Source of the DNA: Sphingobacterium cavernae
GTDB lineage: Bacteria; Bacteroidota; Bacteroidia; Sphingobacteriales; Sphingobacteriaceae
Length of the DNA: 64,000 bases
Assembly (NCBI RefSeq): GCF_008520265.1
Contig: NZ_VIQM01000116.1
Coordinates: forward strand, 1-64,000
Reading direction: 5' to 3'
Shown here one piece after another: positions 4,444 to 36,405 of this stretch. Every line of letters starts with the position of its first letter. Within the stretch, counting starts at the first letter, position 1. The translations under genes and the position numbers were made by a program. Below the pieces are notes generated by a model that worked only from the letters and a program-made list of their open reading frames with translations, ran no database searches and was not told the origin of the DNA.

Positions 4444-5377
4444 CTATTCATGCCATTCTTCACGTCCTAAAGGTTTTTTATTCTCCAAATTTGGATATGA
4501 TTCCTCTAATTCACCACTATCCTGAATAGAAGGTAATTTTGGTTGTCCTGCATCAATCCATACCGAATACCAAAACGATGATACCGCATGTATTGCAGAT
4601 TTGAACCGACGCTGTACCATTCCGTTCATCGCAAGATCGTAAGCTTTGACATATTTGTCCGAATAGGTTTGAATCAGTTGATTGTTGCGCTCGATATATG
4701 ATCTTATTTCTGTTGATTTAAATGTGTTGGACAGATTTTTCTCTATCTGCAATATGGAGTCAACCAGCGCATTACTTTCGCGTACAATTTTCCACGCGTA
4801 TTCTACTGGATCTTTAATGTATTGCGCAGGACCTATGAATAAATCATACTGACCCATATACATTTCGGGAATACGTGTTTCCCAGAGCACATGAATACCA
4901 ATTTGATTGGTGTTGACCATTGTAATTACTGGTTGTATGCAGTGGCACATGCGCATCTGCTACATAATGTCCTAAGTCCGCACTCAATTGAACTATTCTT
5001 TTATTGTTTTTGGTTTTGAACGCCTCCACCAAATTCAAGTAAGTTCTATTAATTTGCCAAGGAACAATACCTTGAGTAAGCAATTTCTTTTCATTTAGTT
5101 TTTCTTTAGCCTTAGACCAATGAATGGGAATGCTATCAATATGATCGTATTTGTCCAAATCAATATAATGCTTTGGGCCTTCGATTGTATCAACATAACA
5201 TCTTTTATCCGCATCAACTGCCTTTGAAGTTATTTGTTTAATATGTGTTTTATAATAGGAAGCTAATTCTGTTGGAAGTAGAAAAACGGCCGTTTCATTG
5301 ATTTTTTTATGCGGATTGAATCCCCAAGAACAAAACAGTAGGATAATACCTATCGATAAAAGATGAAAGTGATTCAT
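4444..5377 (-). pseudogene. Frameshifted zinc-dependent phospholipase C-like / S1-P1-type protein
   Basis: Two overlapping minus-strand frames together make one protein of roughly 310 residues. The first (5377 to 4844) has a signal peptide (MNHFHLLSIGIILLFCSWG) and the metal-site segments HKKIN, DADKR, HYIDLDKY and LGHYVADAHVPLHT. These are typical of the Bacteroidota zinc-dependent phospholipase C-like family, whose metal-binding fold is shared with S1/P1 nucleases. After NYNGQ the frame goes astray. The correct continuation, TNQIGIHVLWETR, is in the second frame (to 4444). The break is at about 4924-4927, where a CACA-like repeat appears two bases short (or one base has been added). All metal-site motifs before the break are intact. 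This is either a recent frameshift mutation or a sequence error. Confidence 0.8.
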
Positions 5378-8164: not shown

Positions 8165-10124
8165 TTAATTACTCGTAATTTCTAAGATCGAACTTTTTAT
8201 ACTACCTCTCAAGTACCAATCTAATCCGACTTTCATTAAATAATCCCCAGAGAAAGTCTGTTCATTTCTATTGAATTGAGGTTTTTGATTTGGCATCAAA
8301 TTGATTTCTTTAATGATGTATTTTTTATTCGGATCCAAACCTTTCAAGACTAGTTTGCTAAACACATCACCAGAAAGTATATTCAGGTTGTAATTGGAAC
8401 AATACAGCTTTAGATTTATCCTCAGAAATAGTCATCCATGCTGCAGAATTGTTGTTGTAAGGAGATATTAAACGATAAATTTCACCCTGACCAATCACTG
8501 TTTGTAGTCTGTTGAAATTCTTTACTGCTTCTTGGTAATAAGTTAATTCGTCTCCGCTAAATTTCTCTAATTCGATATCAAAACCTAATTTCCCGCTCAT
8601 TGCTACGTCTGTACGGAATTTGATCGGCTGTTTACCCCAAGATGTTACGTGTGCACACTGTGCTGCAAAAGGGAAAAAGTACGAGTACGAATATTGCAAG
8701 TACACGCGCTGCAATCCATCTGTATTATCACTTGGCCAAAATTCTTGGAAGTACTTCAAACCACCGTATTCTGCTCTACCGCCACCGCCGCTACACCACA
8801 TCATTTCTAATTCTGGATATTTGCCTCTGAAGCGCTAAAGAACACTGTATAAACCATTCACATAGTCTACGAAAAGATTATTCTGATTATCCTTCAGGTA
8901 AGGTGAGTGTTGGTTAGTCATGTAGCGATTACAATCCCACTTGATGTACGCGATGTCCTTGCCATCTTGCATGATTTTATCCAATACATTGTAGACGTAA
9001 TCTTGGACTTTTGGATTAGTCATATTTAATACCAATTGTTGTCTACGCTCATGAATATCACGATTTGGAAGTTTCAATACCCAGTCAGGGTGTTTTTCGT
9101 ACAACTCACTTTTTGCACTGATCATTTCTGGCTCAACCCAGATACCAAATTTCACACCTTTATCATGCGCTAATTTTACGAGATGTCCAATTCCATTTAG
9201 CAATTTTTCCTTGTTTGGTTCCCAGTCACCTAAACTTGTATGGTCATTATTACGTGGATATTTGTTACCAAACCATCCATCGTCTAGCAAGAATAAATCA
9301 ACTCCAAGTTTTTTAGCATCGCCAAACATATGATCTAGTTTTTTCTCATCAAAGTCAAAATAGGTAGCTTCCCAGTTATTTAACAATGTTGTTCTCATTT
9401 CACGACCTTTATAGATACCGTAGTCCAAAGCCCATTTGTATAAATTACGACTTGCTTGACCTTTACCTTTCGTCGTAAAGGTATAGATGAATGAAGGTGT
9501 CTTAAATTCTTTGCCTGCGGCCAAATTATATGCAGAAGAATAGTTGTTGATACCATGAAGGATTTGAAATTTCCTGACCAAGCGAGAGTATCTGCAATGA
9601 CAGTTCCTTCATCTTCTGTTGCGGGTTTGTCAACAGATAATAAGAATGATGGTAAATCAAAGTTTGTAGCTCTTGTCTCTAATTTTGATTCTATTCGGTG
9701 AATTCCTTGTGGAAGTAAAACCTCTTCGTTGCGCATTTCATTGATCCAATCGCCGTAAAAGTGTTTCAAATAATACTTTTCTGCATTCAATTGCAATGCT
9801 GCTGAAGCTTAATTTTCTAATACTACCGTCTGCTTGTTTTATCAGCAAAGCTGGCTCGCGAATGGTGTTCATTCCACCTGTTATCCATGTGTCAATTTCC
9901 GTATTTGGCAATTGCTGATAATCTCCTTTATTGGATAAAGCTTCACCCAAATATATTTGTTGTAAAGTTTTGGCTGAACTTACACGAAATACTAGCGCAG
10001 AGTTTTGCGTTTCAATCACAATATCTTGGCCTTTTGAATGGAAAGATATTGTAAAGATCAGAAGAAGACTAAATCCAAATTTTGAAACAAAAGCATTTAG
10101 ATTGGTTGATTTTTGTTTACTCAT
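8165..10124 (-). pseudogene. Broken GH36 alpha-galactosidase
   Basis: The minus strand encodes a GH36 alpha-galactosidase in several pieces. From 10124 there is a signal peptide and the start of the N-terminal beta-sandwich. The frame then shifts near 9800, and about 100 expected residues between SIRKLSF and the AEKYYLKHFYGDW region are missing. A second shift near 9575 follows LAWSGNFK, with about ten more residues lost. The catalytic barrel (9581 to 8367) is in one frame but carries an in-frame TAG at 8835-8837, where a Glu-type codon is expected between YSVL and RFRGKYPELEMM. A last frameshift near 8380 separates the C-terminal 66 residues. The nucleophile segment YIKWDCNRYM and the acid/base segment WPSDNTD remain. 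With four or five independent lesions, a sequencing error is unlikely. Full-length relatives have roughly 720 residues. Confidence 0.9.
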
Positions 10125-20632: not shown

Positions 20633-22738
20633 ATGCAAAGTTTTAGAACAGAATTAGAAAACCCAGTTGTAGAGCAAGAGATTATAGAACTCGAGCGTAA
20701 GATTAGAGCTTATCAGGAAGGACAAATTCCAGATGAGAAGTTTCGTTCGTTACGATTGGCTAGAGGAGTGTACGGACAGCGCCAACCGGGGGTACAAATG
20801 GTGCGTATTAAATTACCTTTTGGTAAAGTTACTTTTAAGCAAATATTAAAAATTGCAGATATTTCGGATGAATATGCTTCCAAAAATCTGCACTTGACTA
20901 CACGTCAAGATATACAAATACACTACGTTAGTTTAGATAAAACACCAGAATTGTGGGCTAAATTAGCAGAAGATGATATTACGCTGCGTGAGGCATGTGG
21001 TAATACTGTTCGTAATGTGACAGCATCGCCTACGGCAGGAATCGATCCATTAGAGCCATTTGATGTATCACCATATGCGCATAAAACTTTCGAATATTTC
21101 TTACGAAACCCGATTTGTGCCGAAATGGGACGTAAAATTAAGATTTCCTTTTCTAGTTCAGACCGAGATACAGCATTCTCTTATATACATGACTTTGGAT
21201 TTATTCCGAAAGTGAAAATTGTAGATGGGGAAGAGGTAAGAGGTTTCAAAGTATTGCTTGGTGGCGGGTTAGGTTCACAGCCTTTATTGGCGCACGAAAT
21301 CTTTGATTTCTTAACAGAAGATCAAATTATTCCTTACATGGAAGCGACTTTACGTGTATTTGATCGTCATGGCGAACGCAATAACCGTAATAAAGCGCGT
21401 TTCAAATACCTAGTTCAAAAATTAGGGTTGGAAGAAGTCTTGCGTTTGATTGAAGAAGAAAAAGTAGCAATCAAAAATAAATCTGTTGTTGTAAACAGAG
21501 AAACTATACAGCAGCCTGCAGCGCCAACGTCGGTAGTGGCACCTGTAGAACCAATTGATGCCGCAAAATATCAAGTATGGCGCACCACTAATGTTTTTGA
21601 ACAAAAACAAAAAGGTTTTTTTGGTGTGTATGTGAAAATTTTGACTGGTGATATTCCGACTTCAAAAGCGAGAGAACTAGTTGCTGGAATCCGCGATCAC
21701 ATTGCGGATGATATTCGTATTACACAAAATCAAAATTTACTTTTTAAATATGTACGTGAGGAGTCATTGCCACACTTGTTTAATTTGTTTACACAATTAG
21801 GCATAGCAAATGCTGGTTTTGATAGTACAGCAGACGTAACGACATGTCCTGGTACGGATACCTGTAATTTGGGTATTTCAAATTCTACCGAAATGGCGCG
21901 CGTTATTGAGCAATATATCCATGAATTTCATGAGGAATTTGTGTACGAGCAAGATTTGAAAATCAAAATTTCGGGCTGTATGAACTCTTGCGGTCAACAT
22001 GGTTTGGCACATATTGGTTTTCATGGTAGCTCCGTAAAAGCTGAAGGAAAAGTAGTTCCGGCAGCACAAGTTATGTTAGGTGGAGGTACAATTGGTGATG
22101 GTAAAGGGCGTGTCGCAGAGCGTGTTATCAAAGTTCCAACAAAGCGTGTGTTGCAAGTAGTTGATTTGGTTTTAGTTGATTACAAACAAAATAGATTAGC
22201 GGAAGAAAACTTTCATGCGTATTATGATCGTCAAGGAAAAGACTATTTCTATCGCTTGTTAAAACCACTTTCGGATTTGACTACCTTGACGGCAGATGAA
22301 TTTGTTGATTGGGGTCATGAAGGTACATTCGCAACCGCTATCGGTGTAGGAGAATGTGCTGGTGTGGTTATCGATTTAGTGGCTACACTTTTATTAGAAT
22401 CAGAAGAAAAAATTGAATGGGCTAATAAAGCTTTTGACAATAGTCAATATGCGGATGCAATTTACCATGCCTACAGTGCATTTGTGTGGACAGCAAAAGC
22501 TCTATTATTGGATAAAGGTGTCAATGCAAGTACGCAGACTGCAGTTATCAATGAGTTTGATGCACGTTATGTGCAAGAAGGACTATTTTCTTTCCCTACA
22601 TCATTCGCAGAGCGCGTATTGCAAATAAATAAATATGAACCTTCTAAAGAGTTTGCTGAAGTATTCATCAAGCAAGCAACAGCTTTCTATTATGAAGCTG
22701 CAGAACGTAGAGAGTCATTACGCGTAGTAAACAGTTAA
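20633..22738 (+). CDS. Ferredoxin-type nitrite/sulfite reductase with C-terminal HEPN-like extension
   Basis: This siroheme/[4Fe-4S] enzyme reduces sulfite to sulfide; the operon argues against nitrite as the substrate. The 701-residue protein has two ferredoxin-like/siroheme half-domains. The first half includes LHLTTRQDIQIHYV and RNVTASPTAGIDPLEPFDV. The second half holds the cluster and siroheme cysteines TCPGTDTCNLG (CX5C, near 405-411) and SGCMNSCGQHG (CX3C, near 447-451). After about residue 560 there is an extra domain of some 130 residues, starting at GVGECAGVVIDLVATLLL. It contains a helical stretch (WANKAFDNSQYADAIYHAY) like the HEPN fold. No flavoprotein subunit follows, so ferredoxin is the likely electron donor. 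First gene of the operon. Confidence 0.9.
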   Translation: MQSFRTELENPVVEQEIIELERKIRAYQEGQIPDEKFRSLRLARGVYGQRQPGVQMVRIKLPFGKVTFKQILKIADISDEYASKNLHLTTRQDIQIHYVSLDKTPELWAKLAEDDITLREACGNTVRNVTASPTAGIDPLEPFDVSPYAHKTFEYFLRNPICAEMGRKIKISFSSSDRDTAFSYIHDFGFIPKVKIVDGEEVRGFKVLLGGGLGSQPLLAHEIFDFLTEDQIIPYMEATLRVFDRHGERNNRNKARFKYLVQKLGLEEVLRLIEEEKVAIKNKSVVVNRETIQQPAAPTSVVAPVEPIDAAKYQVWRTTNVFEQKQKGFFGVYVKILTGDIPTSKARELVAGIRDHIADDIRITQNQNLLFKYVREESLPHLFNLFTQLGIANAGFDSTADVTTCPGTDTCNLGISNSTEMARVIEQYIHEFHEEFVYEQDLKIKISGCMNSCGQHGLAHIGFHGSSVKAEGKVVPAAQVMLGGGTIGDGKGRVAERVIKVPTKRVLQVVDLVLVDYKQNRLAEENFHAYYDRQGKDYFYRLLKPLSDLTTLTADEFVDWGHEGTFATAIGVGECAGVVIDLVATLLLESEEKIEWANKAFDNSQYADAIYHAYSAFVWTAKALLLDKGVNASTQTAVINEFDARYVQEGLFSFPTSFAERVLQINKYEPSKEFAEVFIKQATAFYYEAAERRESLRVVNS

Positions 22739-22749
22739 GGAGAGGTAGA

Positions 22750-23517
22750 ATGAGTGAAGTAAAACCATTTGTAACACTAGTCGGTGCTGGTCCAGGTGAC
22801 CCCGATTTGATTACATTAAAAGGTATTAAAGCCATCAAAGAAGCTGATGTGATTCTGTACGATGCTTTGGTAAATGAAGAATTATTAGATTATGCAAAAG
22901 AATCTTGTACGAAGATTTATGTAGGTAAACGTGCTGAACGAATGTCTACTTCACAAGATTATATCAATAAATTATTAGTTGATTACGCATTGACGCATGG
23001 TCATGTCGTAAGGTTGAAAGGTGGAGATCCATTTGTATTTGGACGTGGTGGTGAGGAGTTAGATTATATTCGTCACTTTGATATTCCAACTGCTGTAGTA
23101 CCTGGGATTTCTTCTTCGGTAGGTTTGACTGGTTTGCAACAAATTCCGTTAACTTATCGTGGAATTAGTGAGAGTTTTTGGGTGATAACAGGTTCAACTT
23201 CAGATGGACTTTTGTCGGAAGATTTGCGCCATGCTGTTAAAACTAATGCTACAGTAGTAGTTTTGATGGGCTATTCTAAGTTGCAAAAAATCATTGAATT
23301 ATATCAAGAAAATGGTAGAGGTAATTTACCAATAGCGTTGATTCAAAATGGTTCGCTAGAAAATGAGCGTTTAGCAATTGGTACGATAGATACGATTATG
23401 GAACAAGTTCATAAAAATCTCTTAGGTGTGCCTGCAATAATTGTTTTGGGTGAAGTAGTTGCCAAGCATCAATCTTTTCAAAAGTTAAAACAAGAGATTC
23501 AACATTTAGAAGCTTAA
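22750..23517 (+). CDS. cobA: Uroporphyrinogen-III C-methyltransferase CobA
   Basis: CobA methylates uroporphyrinogen III twice to precorrin-2, the branch point to siroheme. The 255-residue protein has the family sequence VGAGPGDPDLITLKGIKAI at residues 11-29. It also has RLKGGDPFVFGRGGEE near 95 and VVPGISSSVGLTGLQQIPLTYRG near 118. Placed straight after sulfite reductase (11-base gap), it supplies siroheme for that enzyme. In enterobacteria this activity is the C-terminal half of CysG; here it is separate. Confidence 0.95.
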   Translation: MSEVKPFVTLVGAGPGDPDLITLKGIKAIKEADVILYDALVNEELLDYAKESCTKIYVGKRAERMSTSQDYINKLLVDYALTHGHVVRLKGGDPFVFGRGGEELDYIRHFDIPTAVVPGISSSVGLTGLQQIPLTYRGISESFWVITGSTSDGLLSEDLRHAVKTNATVVVLMGYSKLQKIIELYQENGRGNLPIALIQNGSLENERLAIGTIDTIMEQVHKNLLGVPAIIVLGEVVAKHQSFQKLKQEIQHLEA

Positions 23518-24093
23518 ATGAATACGCTGTTTCCCATTTTCGTTAAAATGAACCAGATTCAAACCCTCTTAGTTGGGGCTGGACCTGTTGGTTTGGAGAA
23601 ATTGCAAGCTATATTTCGTAGTTCTCCTTTAGCGAAAGTAAAGATTGTTGCGGAGCAAATTATCCCTGAAGTTTTTGAATTCATTGCGGATAAAGAAACA
23701 ATTCAATTAGAGCGACGTAGCTTTCAAGAGTCGGATTTGGATGGAAAAGATTTGGTTGTAGTAGCGAGTAACAATCCTGAATTAAATAAGCAAATTCGTG
23801 AATTTACTACAAAACGCCATATTCTGTTGAATGTAGCGGATAAGCCAGAATTATGTGATTTCTACTTAGGATCTATCGTCCAAAAAGGAAACTTAAAAAT
23901 TGGTATTTCGACAAATGGTAAATCACCGACAATGGCAAAACGATTAAAAGAATTTTTTAATGAAATATTGCCCGAAGAAATTGACGAAACACTGGAGTTG
24001 TTGCAAGAATATAGAAATCAATTGCGTGGTGATTTGGAACATAAGATTAAGCAGTTAAATGCACATACACAAGATATAGTAAGTAAGAAATAG
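23518..24093 (+). CDS. Precorrin-2 dehydrogenase / sirohydrochlorin ferrochelatase (Met8-like)
   Basis: This 191-residue protein matches the N-terminal CysG/Met8 type. It oxidises precorrin-2 with NAD+ and inserts iron to give siroheme. An N-terminal Rossmann start (QTLLVGAGPVGLEKL) is followed by SNNPELNKQIRE and NVADKPELCDFYLGSIVQKGNLKIGISTNGKSPTMAKRLKE, the conserved core. The start ATG follows the cobA stop with no gap. Together with CobA it makes a split CysG. Some family members only dehydrogenate, so ferrochelatase activity is inferred. Confidence 0.9.
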   Translation: MNTLFPIFVKMNQIQTLLVGAGPVGLEKLQAIFRSSPLAKVKIVAEQIIPEVFEFIADKETIQLERRSFQESDLDGKDLVVVASNNPELNKQIREFTTKRHILLNVADKPELCDFYLGSIVQKGNLKIGISTNGKSPTMAKRLKEFFNEILPEEIDETLELLQEYRNQLRGDLEHKIKQLNAHTQDIVSKK

Positions 24094-24096
24094 GGT

Positions 24097-24795
24097 ATGA
24101 TTGATCATTTGAGAGCAAGTTTACAAGGTTTGGATGCTGCACAAATTATCCAATATATGACGGATAATTATGGTAATAGAGCGGTTTTTTCAACATCTTT
24201 CGGTATAGAAGATCAGGTGCTGACGCAGTTAATTGCTGATGCAGGTGGGAAGATCGATGTTTTCACTTTGGAGACTGGACGTTTATTTCCAGAAACTTAC
24301 TACGTGTGGAACAGAACTTTAGAACGTTACAAATTACCGATAAAGGCGTATTATCCGCAAGCGGCTTTAGTAGAGGAAATGGTCACTAAAAAAGGACCAT
24401 CAAGCTTTTACGAAAGTGTAGAGAATAGAAAAGAATGTTGTTTCATTCGTAAAATTGAGCCATTAAAACGTGCGATTCAAGGTTACGAAATCTGGGTAAC
24501 CGGTATTCGTGCAGAACAATCTGCCAATCGTGAAGATATGGATTTTATAGAGTGGGATGAAGCGAATCAAATTATAAAGATTCATCCCTTATTCCAATGG
24601 ACATTAAGCGATGTAGAATCTCATTTAAAGCAGTATAATGTACCTTATAATCCTTTGCACGACAAAGGATTTCCAAGCATTGGCTGTCAGCCTTGTACGC
24701 GGTCTGTGACACCTGGTGAAGATTTTCGTGCTGGACGCTGGTGGTGGGAAGATAAGAGCAAGAAAGAATGTGGCTTGCATGTTACCAGCAAATAA
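24097..24795 (+). CDS. cysH: Adenylyl-sulfate (APS) reductase CysH
   Basis: This thioredoxin-dependent enzyme of the PAPS/APS reductase family yields sulfite. The 232-residue protein has the [4Fe-4S] cysteine pattern of the APS-using branch. The pattern is the CC pair in NRKECCFIRK, the CxxC in IGCQPCTRSV, and the catalytic Cys in the terminal ECGLH. The nucleotide loop (STSFGIEDQVLTQ) is near residue 30 and the sulfate-contacting TGIRAEQSA near 135. APS as substrate fits the absence of any APS kinase (CysC) in this operon. Confidence 0.93.
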   Translation: MIDHLRASLQGLDAAQIIQYMTDNYGNRAVFSTSFGIEDQVLTQLIADAGGKIDVFTLETGRLFPETYYVWNRTLERYKLPIKAYYPQAALVEEMVTKKGPSSFYESVENRKECCFIRKIEPLKRAIQGYEIWVTGIRAEQSANREDMDFIEWDEANQIIKIHPLFQWTLSDVESHLKQYNVPYNPLHDKGFPSIGCQPCTRSVTPGEDFRAGRWWWEDKSKKECGLHVTSK

Positions 24796-24839: not shown

Positions 24840-25730
24840 ATGGATTATTTAGATCATTTGGAGGCGGAAGCCATTTATATTCTGCGAGAGGTTGCAGGGC
24901 AGTTTGAGAATCCTGCACTTTTGTTTTCAGGTGGAAAAGATAGTATTACATTAGTTCATTTAGCTAAGAAGGCTTTTAGACCAGGCAAATTCCCTTTTCC
25001 GTTGGTACATATAGATACGGGACACAATTTTCCAGAAACCATACAATATAGAGATTGGTTGGTGGAGCAATTGGGTGAAAAGTTAATTGTCGGCTTGGTG
25101 CAAGATAGTATTGATCAAGGAAAAGTAATCGAGCAAAAAGGTAAAAATGCAAGCCGTAATGCATTACAAACGGTTACACTTTTGGATACTATTGAAAAAA
25201 ATGGTTTTGATGCGTGTATCGGTGGTGCACGTCGTGATGAAGAGAAAGCAAGAGCGAAAGAACGTATTTTCTCGGTTCGTGATGAGTTTGGACAATGGGA
25301 TCCTAAGCGTCAACGACCAGAACTTTGGAATATCTTTAATGGTAAAATTCATAAAGGAGAGAATGTTCGTATTTTCCCAATCTCTAATTGGACGGAATTG
25401 GATGTTTGGAATTACATCAAACGTGAAAATATCGCGTTGCCTTCAATCTATTTCAGTCACGAGCGTGATGTAGTGTGGCGCAATGGGCAATGGATGGCTG
25501 CAGCGGAATGTTTAAATATTGATTCGGATGATCTGGTAGAACATAAATCTGTGCGTTTCAGAACAGTAGGGGATATGACATGTACAGCTGCTGTAGGTTC
25601 TGTTGCTACAGAATTAGACGATATTATCGAAGAAATCAAAGCTTCAACTGTGAGTGAGCGTGGTGCCCGTATGGACGATAAAGTATCCGAAGCAGCGATG
25701 GAAGAACGTAAAAAACAAGGTTATTTTTAA
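24840..25730 (+). CDS. cysD: Sulfate adenylyltransferase subunit 2 CysD
   Basis: CysD is the ATP-pyrophosphatase-type subunit that forms APS from ATP and sulfate with CysN. The 296-residue protein has the PP-loop LLFSGGKDSITLVHLAKKAF near residue 29, DTGHNFPET, and FDACIGGARRDEEKARAKERIFS. It ends with the usual basic and Gly-rich KKQGYF tail. It lies between cysH and cysN on the plus strand. The gap to cysN carries an imperfect palindrome. Confidence 0.96.
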   Translation: MDYLDHLEAEAIYILREVAGQFENPALLFSGGKDSITLVHLAKKAFRPGKFPFPLVHIDTGHNFPETIQYRDWLVEQLGEKLIVGLVQDSIDQGKVIEQKGKNASRNALQTVTLLDTIEKNGFDACIGGARRDEEKARAKERIFSVRDEFGQWDPKRQRPELWNIFNGKIHKGENVRIFPISNWTELDVWNYIKRENIALPSIYFSHERDVVWRNGQWMAAAECLNIDSDDLVEHKSVRFRTVGDMTCTAAVGSVATELDDIIEEIKASTVSERGARMDDKVSEAAMEERKKQGYF

Positions 25731-25815: not shown

Positions 25816-27060
25816 ATGAATATTCTAAAATTTATCACGGCTGGTTCTGTTGACGATGGAAAAAGTACCTTAATTGGCCGTTTGCTATATGATACCAACT
25901 CGATTTTGGATGACCAATTGGAGGCTATCCAAAAGGCGAATCGCAAGAACGATGATGGAACTGTGGATTTGGCAATCTTGACCGATGGTCTAAAAGCCGA
26001 ACGCGAGCAAGGTATCACTATTGATGTGGCGTACAAATATTTCCAAACGGAAAATCGTAAGTTCATTATTGCGGATGCGCCTGGGCATATCCAGTATACG
26101 CGTAACATGATTACGGGAGCGTCCAACTCGGATTTAATTATTATCCTTATTGATGCACGAAAAGGTGTAATCGAACAAACGAAACGTCACTCTTTTATTG
26201 CGAAGCTTTTATCGCTAAAACAAGTATTGGTTTGTGTCAACAAAATGGATATGGTTGATTATGCGGAGGATGTATATGAAACTATTAAAGCTGACTATTT
26301 GCAATTAGCAAAAAACCTTAAGTTGAAAAATGTTGATTTCATTCCAGTTTCGGCATTGAAAGGGGATAACATAGTTGACAAATCTTCCCGTATCGCTTGG
26401 TATGATGGATTAACTTTGTTGGAATACCTAGAGCAAGTTGAATTCGAGGAAAGCAATGTCGATACGTGGCGTTTTCCGGTGCAATGGGTAATCCGTCCAC
26501 AGTCGGAAGATTATCCGGATTACCGTGGTTATGCAGGTCGTGTGATTGGTGAAGGCGTAAAAGTAGGAGAGTCTGTGGTGATTTTGCCTAGCGGTGTACA
26601 AACAACCATTGAACGGATAGAGTTAGATCAAAAAGAATTACAAGCTGCGCATGATGGTCAATCGGTGGTCTTGCATCTAAAAGATGATGTAGATATTTCG
26701 CGTGGTGATTTTATCGTGTCAGCGAATAAACCTGCTCATGCCGAACGCGGTTTTGAAGCAAATATCTCATGGTTTGAAAATAAAGCTTTGGATACAAATC
26801 AAGTGTATTTATTACAAAATCAAACCAAAGTCACCAAAATCAAAATTCCTGAAGTACAATACAAGTTTGATGTCAATACGCAAGAACGTATTTACGATGA
26901 AGATATTCGATTAAATGATATTGGTCGTGTGTCCGTTAAAGCTGCTGAGGAAGTTGTTTTTGATTTAAACCGTGATTTCCCAGCAAATGCTCGTGCTATT
27001 ATTATTGATCCACGTAATAACCTTACAGTTGGTGCTTTGACGGTAGAAGAGTTATTGTAA
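25816..27060 (+). CDS. cysN: Sulfate adenylyltransferase subunit 1 CysN
   Basis: CysN is the EF-Tu-like GTPase that couples GTP hydrolysis to APS formation by CysD. The 414-residue protein has G1 GSVDDGKST (10-18), G3 DAPGH and G4 NKMD. Beta-barrel domains 2 and 3 follow, with FRFPVQWV-like and YAGRVIGEGVKVGE segments. It ends at about residue 414 with no C-terminal APS kinase (CysC) fusion. This agrees with an APS-reductase pathway. It is the last gene of the operon, followed by a strong bidirectional terminator. Confidence 0.96.
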   Translation: MNILKFITAGSVDDGKSTLIGRLLYDTNSILDDQLEAIQKANRKNDDGTVDLAILTDGLKAEREQGITIDVAYKYFQTENRKFIIADAPGHIQYTRNMITGASNSDLIIILIDARKGVIEQTKRHSFIAKLLSLKQVLVCVNKMDMVDYAEDVYETIKADYLQLAKNLKLKNVDFIPVSALKGDNIVDKSSRIAWYDGLTLLEYLEQVEFEESNVDTWRFPVQWVIRPQSEDYPDYRGYAGRVIGEGVKVGESVVILPSGVQTTIERIELDQKELQAAHDGQSVVLHLKDDVDISRGDFIVSANKPAHAERGFEANISWFENKALDTNQVYLLQNQTKVTKIKIPEVQYKFDVNTQERIYDEDIRLNDIGRVSVKAAEEVVFDLNRDFPANARAIIIDPRNNLTVGALTVEELL

Positions 27061-27082: not shown

Positions 27083-27116
27083 CAACCTCCAAATAGTGGA
27101 AGCTATTTGGGGGTTG
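27083..27116. terminator. Bidirectional terminator between cysN and higA
   Basis: A 14-bp stem (CAACCTCCAAATAG and complement with one wobble) with a 6-base loop separates the convergent cysN and higA genes. The plus-strand side is followed by TTGTTAAT rather than a long T-run. Confidence 0.7.
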
Positions 27117-27119
27117 TTG

Positions 27120-27476
27120 TTAATATGCTTGGATTAGCACTTCAGATGGAATATGTAATTTATCTGTTAATTTTCGAATCATTTCTAATGATAATTTTCT
27201 TTTCTTGTTTAAGATTTCGCTAGCTCTACTTTTTAAACCGATAATTTCCGCTAAATCATTCTGCGAATAATTTAATTGCTCCATACGGAATTTTATAGCT
27301 TCAATAGGGTCAGGAAGTTCAATTGGAAAGTTTTCATTTTCATATTTTTCCAACAAGATTCCTAAGATTTCTAATTCATCACCTTCTTTCGTTCCTGGCT
27401 TAGCATCAAAAATTACTTCTAATCTTTCTAATGCTTCCATATAATCTTGTTCTGTTTTGATAGGTTTTACATTCAT
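27120..27476 (-). CDS. higA: HigA-type antitoxin
   Basis: This 118-residue protein has the HigA architecture. A helical N-terminal part with the sequence TEQDYMEALERLEVIFDAKPGT is typical of HigA antitoxins that begin with KPIKTE. A C-terminal Xre-type helix-turn-helix (about 72-100, SQNDLAEIIGLKSRASEILN) follows. It neutralises HigB and represses their shared promoter. It begins five bases after the higB stop, in toxin-first order as usual for higBA. Confidence 0.92.
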   Translation of the reverse strand: MNVKPIKTEQDYMEALERLEVIFDAKPGTKEGDELEILGILLEKYENENFPIELPDPIEAIKFRMEQLNYSQNDLAEIIGLKSRASEILNKKRKLSLEMIRKLTDKLHIPSEVLIQAY

Positions 27477-27481
27477 ATCTT

Positions 27482-27775
27482 TTAAATTTTGTTGGCATCT
27501 ATTTTATCATATTCGGCATGAGAGCCTATAAAGCGAATCCAAATCATTTGATAACTGAAATTGATTTTAACAATCAATCGATAATGATTACCCTTTAAAT
27601 TAAAACAAACGCGATTATCTTCTAAAACACTTAAACTTGGATATTCAAGCTTTAATTCATTCAAGTTTTTCCAAGTCCCTTTTTCAGCCTCAGCGTACCA
27701 CGATTTCAGTTGCTGTTCGCAATCTGAATGTTTTTCCCAAAACTCACGTAATATTTTCTTTGCTATAACTCTCAA
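27482..27775 (-). CDS. higB: HigB-type mRNA interferase toxin
   Basis: This 97-residue RelE-fold toxin starts MRVIAKKILREFWEKHSDCE, the classic HigB opening. It ends with IWIRFIGSHAEYDKID, which carries the conserved His and Tyr of the ribosome-dependent nuclease. The first codon is TTG at 27775; no in-frame ATG exists and the family's conserved N-terminus begins right there. It lies upstream of higA in the same operon, and a 9-bp dyad lies close upstream. Confidence 0.92.
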   Translation of the reverse strand: MRVIAKKILREFWEKHSDCEQQLKSWYAEAEKGTWKNLNELKLEYPSLSVLEDNRVCFNLKGNHYRLIVKINFSYQMIWIRFIGSHAEYDKIDANKI

Positions 27776-34030: not shown

Positions 34031-35596
34031 ATGAACTATTATTTAAATAAACTTATGACCTATCATGAGGTTCACAAAATGTATCGAGAAGGTAATTCGA
34101 TACGAAAAATTTCAGAACATTTAGGACTGAATTGGCGCACGGTAAAAAAGCTCTTATCCAAAGACGACCGAAGTTACCAAAAAGAACTAGAACGGCCTAT
34201 TTCTAAGAAAAAACTTCTTGATCCCTTTCGAGATTTTGTACGGGAAAAACTGGAGCTCTACCATGATACTTCTGCCGCACAAATGTTTGATTGGCTTAAA
34301 GAACAACACCCTGACTTTCCCTCAGTTAGTGCCAAAACAGTATTCAACTTTGTACAAGGCATTCGGGCGGAATTCAATATTCCTAAAGTGAGCTCTGCTC
34401 GTGATTTTCAGATGGTTGAAGAGCTTCCTTACGGTAGTCAAGCTCAGGTAGACTTTGGTTTTTATAATATGACCACCACAACAAATAAGCAAAAGAGAGT
34501 ACAATTCTTTACTTTCATTCTATCGCGCAGCCGTTATAAGTTCATTTTGTTTAGTGATATTCCTTTTACCACGGCAATGGTTATTGATGCACATGAACAA
34601 GCTTTTCAGTTTATTGCTGGTCTGCCTGAAGAAATCGTTTATGATCAGGACAGATTGTTTATCGTCTCTGAAAACCTAGGTGACATAGTACTCACTTCCG
34701 AGTTTTCGAATTATGTGCGAGAGCGTGGAATTAAGCTTCATTTTTGTCGAAAATCCGATCCCCAAAGCAAGGGTAAAGTAGAAAACGTAGTTAAATATGT
34801 AAAGCAGAACTTTCTATATAATAGGCCATATCGTGATCTTGAAACGCTTAATGATGAATGTATAGCCTGGCTGCACCGTACGGCCAACAATCTGCCCCAT
34901 GGTACAACCAAACTTATTCCACTAGAAGAACTTGCTAAAGAGCAGATGTTTTTAGAACAGTATCACCAAGTGCTTCCCAACCCACCGCAAAAACAGATTT
35001 ACGCTGTTCATAAAGATAATAAGGTGTCTTATAAGGGTAATTTCTATAGTGTTCCAATTGGCACATATAACGCTGGTATTACTAAAGTCCACCTTAGCGA
35101 GCAGCATGGCAAATTACACATTGCAGAGCTCTCAGGAAAAGAAATCTGCGTACATGAAGTTTCAGCTTTAAAAGGGAAAAAGATCATTCTGCGTACTCAT
35201 GGCCGTAATATGGAGCCAAAGGTAACAGAACTGATTTATCAAACAGCTTCTTTATTTGAAAATATAGAAAAAGCTCAGCAATGGTTAATTGCGATAAAAC
35301 TCCATAAAAAAAGATATATACGTGATCAGATACAAATGATTGAGCGTGTCATAGAAAACAATAATGCATTTGATATATCACGTGCATTAGATTACGTTCA
35401 TGCTAATAATATACTAAGCGCAACGGACTTTAAAGCTTATCTAGATTATATCCGCTCAGAAAAAAACCATAAACCGGAACTGGAAACCAAAATTATCAGG
35501 CTTAACCCACTTTCAGCAAGCAATAACACCCAAATGGAACTAGAACCTCAGAAAAGTGATTTAACTGATTATGAATTACTTTTTGGTAACAACTAA
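34031..35596 (+). CDS. istA: IS21-family transposase IstA
   Basis: This 521-residue transposase has an N-terminal helix-turn-helix (SIRKISEHLGLNWRTVKKLL, residues 18-40) and an RNase H-fold integrase core. The acidic triad is visible: Asp near 140 in QVDFGFY, Asp near 205 in VYDQDRLF, and Glu near 250 in SKGKVENVVKYV. It ends with a region typical of IstA, including the Mu-transposase C-like barrel (KVSYKGNFYSVP, near 335). It is full length and apparently intact. The downstream gap to istB holds a hairpin. Confidence 0.95.
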   Translation: MNYYLNKLMTYHEVHKMYREGNSIRKISEHLGLNWRTVKKLLSKDDRSYQKELERPISKKKLLDPFRDFVREKLELYHDTSAAQMFDWLKEQHPDFPSVSAKTVFNFVQGIRAEFNIPKVSSARDFQMVEELPYGSQAQVDFGFYNMTTTTNKQKRVQFFTFILSRSRYKFILFSDIPFTTAMVIDAHEQAFQFIAGLPEEIVYDQDRLFIVSENLGDIVLTSEFSNYVRERGIKLHFCRKSDPQSKGKVENVVKYVKQNFLYNRPYRDLETLNDECIAWLHRTANNLPHGTTKLIPLEELAKEQMFLEQYHQVLPNPPQKQIYAVHKDNKVSYKGNFYSVPIGTYNAGITKVHLSEQHGKLHIAELSGKEICVHEVSALKGKKIILRTHGRNMEPKVTELIYQTASLFENIEKAQQWLIAIKLHKKRYIRDQIQMIERVIENNNAFDISRALDYVHANNILSATDFKAYLDYIRSEKNHKPELETKIIRLNPLSASNNTQMELEPQKSDLTDYELLFGNN

Positions 35597-35601
35597 TAAT
35601 A

Positions 35602-35625
35602 TCCCTGTCGGTAATACGGCAGGGA
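35602..35625 (+). other. Hairpin between istA and istB
   Basis: A 9-bp stem TCCCTGTCG against CGGCAGGGA (one wobble) with a GTAATA loop lies six bases past the istA stop. No T-run follows, so it is more likely an mRNA structure than a terminator. Confidence 0.5.
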
Positions 35626-35655
35626 AAAACTAATAACTCTACTAAAATAATAACA

Positions 35656-36405
35656 ATGGAAAATCAAAAACAACTGGTAAAACAACTTTGTTCAGACTTC
35701 AGAATCTCAGCGGTTGCTGCAAATTTGGATCAAATAATAGCTACAGCTGAAAGTGAAGACATTGGCTACCTAGAACTCCTAACAAGATTGTTGAAAGCAG
35801 AGCAGCAACATCGCCAACAAAGAGATGAAGTTAGACGTATGAAATCTGCTTCACTTCCCCGTAATAACGATTTATCAAACTATGATGCTAAACGTAATGG
35901 ACTTACTGATAAAAGACTAGCCACACTTAGAGAGCTTAACTGGATAGATCAACTCTTTAACTTAGTTCTTATGGGACCAAGTGGTACAGGAAAAACAATG
36001 CTAGCGGCAGGATTAGCTAAGGATGCTGTAAAGGCCGGGTATCATGTATACTTTAGAACTATGGAAGAAATAGTCTCTATCTTAAAAACCAAGGACTTCG
36101 TACGTTCGCAAACAGCAGAATACAAAAAGATGGTACGAGCCAACCTAATCATTATTGATGATGTTATGCTTTTCCCTTTAGAAAAAAATGTTGCAGTTGG
36201 CTTCTTTAATTTTATTAATCAAATATATGAATCAACATCTATTATCGTAACCACTAATAAGAAACCAACTGAATGGGCTAAAATGCTCGAAGATGAGGTG
36301 ATTGCAACGGCACTCTTAGATAGAATTTTGTTTCGGTGCGAAGTCATAAATCTAACAGGAGAAAGCTATAGATTGCAGAATAGAAAATCATTCTTGGACA
36401 AATAA
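35656..36405 (+). CDS. istB: IS21-family helper ATPase IstB
   Basis: This 249-residue AAA+ ATPase of the DnaC-like group assists IstA in target selection. It has the N-terminal helical region (LLKAEQQHRQQRDEVRRMKSA). Walker A is GPSGTGKTM (near 105-113), Walker B is LIIIDDVM (near 168), and a sensor segment IIVTTNKKPTEWAKML follows. Length is normal. It lies downstream of istA with a 59-base gap and ends just before the right repeats. Confidence 0.95.
   Translation: MENQKQLVKQLCSDFRISAVAANLDQIIATAESEDIGYLELLTRLLKAEQQHRQQRDEVRRMKSASLPRNNDLSNYDAKRNGLTDKRLATLRELNWIDQLFNLVLMGPSGTGKTMLAAGLAKDAVKAGYHVYFRTMEEIVSILKTKDFVRSQTAEYKKMVRANLIIIDDVMLFPLEKNVAVGFFNFINQIYESTSIIVTTNKKPTEWAKMLEDEVIATALLDRILFRCEVINLTGESYRLQNRKSFLDK

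Follow-up and report, generated by a model that had tools for sequence, protein, structure and literature searches.

The first gene of a predicted sulfate-assimilation operon in Sphingobacterium cavernae encodes a sulfite reductase (SiR) whose chain continues beyond the siroheme enzyme into a short arm, a conserved GECA motif, and a helical HEPN domain. This raises the question of what such a C-terminus does on an enzyme of central metabolism, and whether its parts form one unit. The gene lies in the window, i.e., the whole stretch of 64,000 nucleotides that was analysed, and has the following parts:

20633-22738, + strand: SiR open reading frame of 701 aa; start ATG, stop 11 bases ahead of the ATG of the next gene
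20633..22267, + strand: siroheme/[4Fe-4S] SiR core, residues 1-545 (Pfam, alignments to NirA and nitrite reductase (NiR), conservation)
22307..22348, + strand: arm, residues 559-572 (DWGHEGTFATAIGV), a spacer of near-constant length from the core to the motif (position of the D-x-G triplet)
22349..22360, + strand: GECA motif, residues 573-576 (conservation), with the invariant Cys575 at bases 22355-22357
22364..22735, + strand: HEPN domain of five helices, residues 578-701, without RNase motif (Pfam, AlphaFold, Foldseek, VIA-align)

Judged from its sequence, the 701-residue product is almost certainly a siroheme/[4Fe-4S] assimilatory SiR. Its Pfam content is two NIR_SIR_ferr and two NIR_SIR domains, followed by PF05168 (HEPN). 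Alignment to NirA places the Fe-S ligands at Cys405, Cys411, Cys449, and Cys453; these cysteines and R91, R127, K168, and K170, which we take to be the substrate/siroheme residues (R91, R127, and K168-x-K170), are each kept in all 77 representatives. The core fold is common with that of Mycobacterium tuberculosis NirA (PDB 1zj8; VIA-align Z 29.4, rmsd 3.9 over 457 residues), as are the Arg/Arg/Lys/Lys pocket and the EACG-loop cysteine of the NirA family, with Cys122 aligning at the place of the cysteine in the EACGD of NirA. The match to NirA stops by residue 540, ahead of the arm and the HEPN domain. When aligned to solved structures, K168-x-K170 is like NirA (RKYK), whereas plant NiR has K-x-N (RKWN), which argues that the window enzyme is an SiR and not a nitrite reductase. 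The closest named relative is S. litopenaei, with 96% identity.

The SiR appears, from the gene order, to be the first gene of a sulfate-assimilation and siroheme-synthesis operon in Sphingobacterium, which continues as follows:

22750..23517, + strand: CobA/SUMT, uroporphyrinogen-III C-methyltransferase of siroheme synthesis (Pfam)
23518..24093, + strand: precorrin-2 dehydrogenase/ferrochelatase of the CysG N-terminal type (Pfam)
24097..24795, + strand: CysH, APS/PAPS reductase with an ECGLH tail (Pfam, sequence)
24840..25730, + strand: presumably CysD, sulfate adenylyltransferase subunit (PAPS_reduct fold in Pfam; named from gene order and family knowledge)
25816..27060, + strand: presumably CysN, the sulfate adenylyltransferase GTPase subunit (Pfam; named likewise)
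27083..27116, + strand: terminator-like hairpin of 15 pairs, 3' of the operon (consensus match only)

The hairpin is one of two terminator-like sites found, against 4.2 on average in shuffles. Of 80 related loci, 64 have their genes in the order SiR-CobA-CysG(N)-CysH-CysD-CysN. Seven of the 80 have no match to CobA; otherwise gaps are confined to the downstream end, on which side 11 loci contain 5 kb or less. The operon context predicts that the enzyme carries out the six-electron reduction of sulfite to sulfide. No CysJ scores above the cut-off in the genome, weak matches being confined to one 735-aa protein, which fits an electron donor of the ferredoxin type. A second NIR_SIR protein, of 850 aa, is encoded elsewhere in the genome and could serve nitrite.

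Other features of the window were recorded in passing. A HigB-type toxin gene (PF09907, 107.7 bits) and an HTH_3 antitoxin-like gene lie directly behind the operon hairpin (27120-27775, - strand), and an IS21-type element, composed of a transposase-like frame with a weak rve match and IstB (208 bits), occupies 34031-36405 (+ strand). At 4444-5377 (- strand), an S1/P1-nuclease-like gene is apparently split over two overlapping frames, possibly by a frame shift; only its upstream half matches PF02265, below the cut-off. The frame at 8835-9581 (- strand) spans positions 2-222 of the 347 of the Melibiase domain, and is perhaps a truncated alpha-galactosidase.

The C-terminal domain can hardly be other than a true HEPN fold. 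Against a cut-off of 22 bits, PF05168 reaches 22.1 with the full-length protein and 25.5 with residues 560-701 by themselves, and since all 61 members of the domain alignment, the window SiR and 60 of the 80 related loci, match it at E<=0.01 (best 5.4e-9), the match stands above chance. It is the only PF05168 match in the genome at E<=0.001. The AlphaFold model built on the 61 sequences has five helices, with pLDDT >90 for most residues from 582 on. The best three PDB matches in Foldseek (2hsb, 1o3u, and 1wol) are all titled HEPN, and the fourth (1ufb) has a title without that word; 2hsb is the sole match with E <0.001 (E 4.2e-4, TM 0.74 by target and 0.60 by query). VIA-align superposes the domain on 2hsb with Z 15.6 and an rmsd of 2.7 over 117 residues, and five of its best seven matches (Z 12.4-15.6) are titled HEPN. 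The original prediction of a HEPN-like C-terminal fold is thus borne out; an unrelated fold, which it had named as the outcome that would speak against it, did not emerge, since the best Foldseek and VIA-align matches are HEPN structures.

The extent of the domain is narrower than was first proposed. The original prediction drew it from position 22310, i.e., from residue 560, the Trp of DWG. In VIA-align the HEPN fold starts at about residue 579 and covers the last 120 residues or so; therefore, the proposed interval does contain a HEPN domain, and its first 19 residues are the arm.

Across homologues, the 142 C-terminal domains form one family: 141 are collected at E<1e-3 in one step, and the remaining one reaches E 0.0012 in the first step and 6.6e-17 in the second. 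The Pfam HEPN model does not reach the divergent proteins L113 and L120. In L153 and L154 (genomes G477 and G472), a variant TGVKGECAGA is followed by a HEPN domain, which in L153 scores 21.4 bits, under the cut-off.

The original prediction noted that HEPN folds usually have to do with nucleic acids or nucleotides, and singled out the Rx4-6H motif for inspection. No Rx4-6H, the motif of HEPN RNases, occurs in the HEPN domain of the window SiR. Among HEPN-bearing homologues, some Rx4-6H string is found in 43 of 142, at most 21 of them at any one position. Many members of the HEPN superfamily are without this motif. An alternative histidine has been described for HEPN domains of the AF0298 type (PMC3710099). 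The residue aligned with that histidine is Gln635, and 80 of 81 sequences have Gln there. With Rx4-6H absent and the alternative His replaced by Gln, the domain is very probably not an RNase, as far as its residues tell; the candidate role of an active RNase was rejected on these grounds, and the negative Rx4-6H result makes a nucleic-acid enzyme unlikely. The domain may still act in assembly, partner binding, or regulation, as the original prediction proposed. Conservation within the domain is sparse: only A621 (68/69) and F642 (69/69) are kept at 97% or more in the 69 HEPN-bearing representatives, and both look like packing residues. Where present, the HEPN domain is thus not free to drift, which counts against the reading preferred below.

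The nearest structural relative, HEPN-T (PF05168) of Archaeoglobus fulgidus (AF0298, PDB 2hsb), has a similar fold across the whole domain. The SiR HEPN differs from it in being fused to an enzyme and in having neither the motif Arg nor the alternative His. Table 1 of a 2013 survey of HEPN domains holds a line 'HEPN-T (Cpin_6617)', without Rx4-6H and given for Bacteroidetes and Nitrospirae, which reads 'Fusions to a dyad of ferredoxin domains' (PMC3710099). The two NIR_SIR_ferr half domains of SiR would fit this dyad; the words sulfite, nitrite, and reductase are absent from the survey's main text, and GECA is not found in its relevant passages (PMC3710099). Going by this table entry, the SiR-HEPN fusion is probably the one listed there. 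A search of the open literature that paired HEPN with siroheme or sulfite reductase returned no pertinent paper by those terms, and no description of the GECA arm of sulfite reductases was found in the open literature searched.

Conservation of the C-terminus is highest around the GECA motif. In 81 close sequences, mean conservation is 0.915 for residues 561-585, 0.73 for 586-640, and 0.63 for 641-701. The window SiR has GVGECAG at residues 571-577, and a degenerate DNA pattern for this string has a single exact match in the 4.07 Mb genome. To delimit the family, identical and contained sequences were removed first (179 to 169 proteins), and a score of 250 bits or more against the core defined a strong homologue, a line set after the scores had been seen and lying in a gap from 313 to 230. 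Among the 152 strong proteins are the window SiR itself and some frames truncated where a locus ends. GECA is present in 151 of them, the single miss being at a contig end, and in none of the 17 weaker siroheme reductases that were fetched. The latter were chosen from 15 genomes and one plasmid, sampling 13 of the 32 census genomes that have weaker matches only. The Cys and Ala of GECA are found in 77/77 representatives against 0/17 GECA-less proteins, GECA is kept in all 69 HEPN-bearing representatives, and Cys575 is Cys in 81 of 81 close sequences. In the window SiR, it is the sole cysteine after residue 453.

The position of the motif is nearly constant as well. GECA follows the Fe-S motif by 123-129 residues in all 148 readable proteins (sd 0.73), and the D-x-G triplet begins 14 residues ahead of GECA in 140 of 151 homologues. 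The distance from RKxK to the Fe-S motif (276-426), intended as a control for indels, was set aside, since the RKxK pattern is liable to hit an incorrect site. In seven divergent proteins, two of them without HEPN, G561 and GECA make up the invariant columns beyond residue 535.

The arm and the HEPN domain can be separated. Nine of the 151 GECA proteins are without HEPN, and their chains end in GECAV or GECAA; these are a plasmid-borne SiR of Thermus oshimai and eight SiRs from one Bacteroidota family. The original prediction had described GVGECAG and HEPN as a single added domain: both are indeed there, and the occurrence of the motif without HEPN in these proteins shows that they are not one unit. 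Given that HEPN-less relatives still end in the arm, the arm may be of greater importance than the domain behind it. The possibility that the tail-only SiRs have HEPN encoded by a neighbouring gene was considered and rejected: over 900 bases downstream of each of the nine tail-only genes there is no HEPN-like frame (best E 0.33), none is annotated around the Thermus gene, and none is found among seven Pfam-scanned neighbours of the tail-only SiR at locus L119, one of which, a 103-aa frame, is without a Pfam family. Downstream of the SiR at L119 (2687-3798) are a double rhodanese and this 103-aa frame, and both are also downstream at L142; a persulfide link to the GECA cysteine is conceivable. 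Unannotated frames like sulfite/nitrite reductase, at 1.9-4.1 kb in records KR093639.1 and KR093642.1 of Moraxella phages Mcat15 and Mcat18, are 32-33% identical to the SiR of L119, and might stem from host DNA that flanks a prophage in these records.

How general the fusion is had to be counted without the HEPN domain itself, because a HEPN-derived peptide was among the queries that retrieved the 80 related loci, which are ranked by similarity. In a census of 395 Bacteroidota genomes searched with the core alone (residues 1-545), 59 have a core match at E<=1e-60, and 57 of these have long frames of the HEPN type; of the exceptions, G039 ends early and is tail-only, and in G200 the contig runs out. 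The HEPN fusion is, therefore, general in Bacteroidota that have a GECA-type SiR. On this count, a fusion peculiar to one genome, or a read-through, was rejected. A tree of 33 cores puts the GECA-less proteins on one side of a branch (95/92); the three states need three changes, and four end branches are long. The tree allows HEPN to have been added behind the arm or to have been lost in some lines.

Predicted models bear on where the arm might lie. In the model of the isolated domain, residues 561-579 have pLDDT <50, and the HEPN helices are mostly >90. The full model falls below 50 at 1-13, 38-53, 120-126, 250-254, 408-413, 449-452, 568-580, and 698-701. Three of these loops contain Cys122 (120-126), Cys411 (408-413), and Cys449 (449-452), with which the arm at 568-580 shares its low-confidence state; the stretches 38-53 and 250-254 are, we assume, on the cofactor side. 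There are 18 core positions invariant in GECA proteins and rare in others, and the low-pLDDT stretches hold eight of these 18 against 10 of 67 other invariant positions, with five of the eight in 38-53. This clustering is suggestive of an arm that belongs with the core, and weak in that invariant residues crowd round the cofactors anyway; the low pLDDT fits a plainly flexible arm as well. VIA-align with E. coli SiR gives ranges that end at residue 581-582 of the model and at residue 570, the last, of the E. coli protein, a comparison of end points only and too little to locate the arm.

We therefore arrive at a reading, to which we give a probability of about 0.55, in which the window enzyme belongs to an SiR subfamily with a GECA arm docked on the core and, behind it, HEPN as a non-catalytic module. 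The C-terminal arm of fixed length would fold back onto the core and bring Cys575, together with Glu574, into or close to the siroheme-[4Fe-4S] pocket; there the thiol might gate, protonate, or briefly accept sulfur. The HEPN domain would be a helical module that fixes the arm, and would support the dimer or dock a partner, such as ferredoxin or CysH. The parts of this reading are not equally secure. That the arm is functional and docked on the core is likely; that HEPN acts as a scaffold or docking module is somewhat favoured; a place near the siroheme has slightly less than even odds; and participation of the Cys575 thiol in chemistry is rather doubtful.

A comparison with dissimilatory systems is possible, in anatomy only. 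DsrC has a cysteine near the end of its C-terminal arm, and the DsrC arm uses two cysteines. The GECA arm has the first of these traits, its length being constant and its cysteine conserved and almost terminal; the second arm cysteine has no counterpart in the window SiR. Moreover, DsrC is a separate protein of dissimilatory metabolism, whereas the GECA arm is in-chain and assimilatory, and no sequence relation is claimed. DsrC is a sulfur-carrying partner of a siroheme enzyme: assimilatory SiRs carry out all six electron steps and release sulfide, whereas dissimilatory ones pass the sulfur to DsrC, according to the Fsr structure paper (PMC10229431). By this analogy, a cysteine arm that reaches the siroheme would perhaps be an in-built analogue of DsrC.

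Several other explanations could account for part of these observations. The arm may be only structural: GECA would serve as an N-cap or packing motif, holding the C-terminus in place against the core or across the dimer, and the thiol would have no role. This is a serious possibility, short of probable: the invariant Gly-Glu-x-Ala around the Cys resembles a packing turn, docking alone suffices for the constant spacing from the Fe-S motif, and the Fsr structure paper presumes that SiRs with C-terminal extensions use them to make the dimer firmer and to bind partners (PMC10229431). What a purely structural arm does not readily explain is that the residue remains Cys in all 77 representatives, even in chains that end two residues later. 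Alternatively, the electron donor or CysH might dock on the arm and HEPN together, allowing direct hand-over of electrons or sulfite. In 78 of 80 loci CysH lies downstream of SiR in the same orientation, and it has a match in eight of 20 divergent loci (many of them <5.3 kb, and two of the eight being the same place); the lack of a CysJ above cut-off points in the same direction. However, such a neighbourhood is expected within one pathway, and HEPN-less GECA SiRs are also found beside CysH (Thermus, L119), which leaves joint docking conceivable and rather unlikely.

The HEPN domain might also bind RNA or a nucleotide without cutting it, making the SiR a regulator that responds to sulfur state. 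Motif-less HEPN domains have been proposed as possible non-catalytic RNA binders in the HEPN survey (PMC3710099), but the only positions kept at 97% or more are the packing-like A621 and F642, and arm-bearing SiRs can dispense with the domain, so that we consider this role improbable. The chance that the C-terminus is a meaningless by-product of fusion or read-through is negligible, given its retention throughout the core-only census outside the tail-only genome and the contig end.

Among these explanations, the reading with a core-docked arm and a non-catalytic HEPN module remains our preferred one. GECA offers a simple marker for the SiR subfamily, members of which are labelled nitrite/sulfite reductase in plasmid records. 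Since the 17 GECA-less proteins are distant and a chosen sample, the arm might simply mark the subfamily. A wider proposal is speculative and on balance unlikely to hold in full: a large subfamily of assimilatory SiRs would carry a built-in GECA arm that accepts sulfur or gates the pocket, a one-chain counterpart of DsrAB-DsrC, which in Bacteroidota is held by a scaffold that was once an RNase. The invariant arm cysteine, found with or without HEPN, provides a single-residue test of whether some assimilatory SiRs make use of a thiol. If the reading is true, this family would show clearly that a HEPN domain can be retained for structural reasons in an enzyme of central metabolism.
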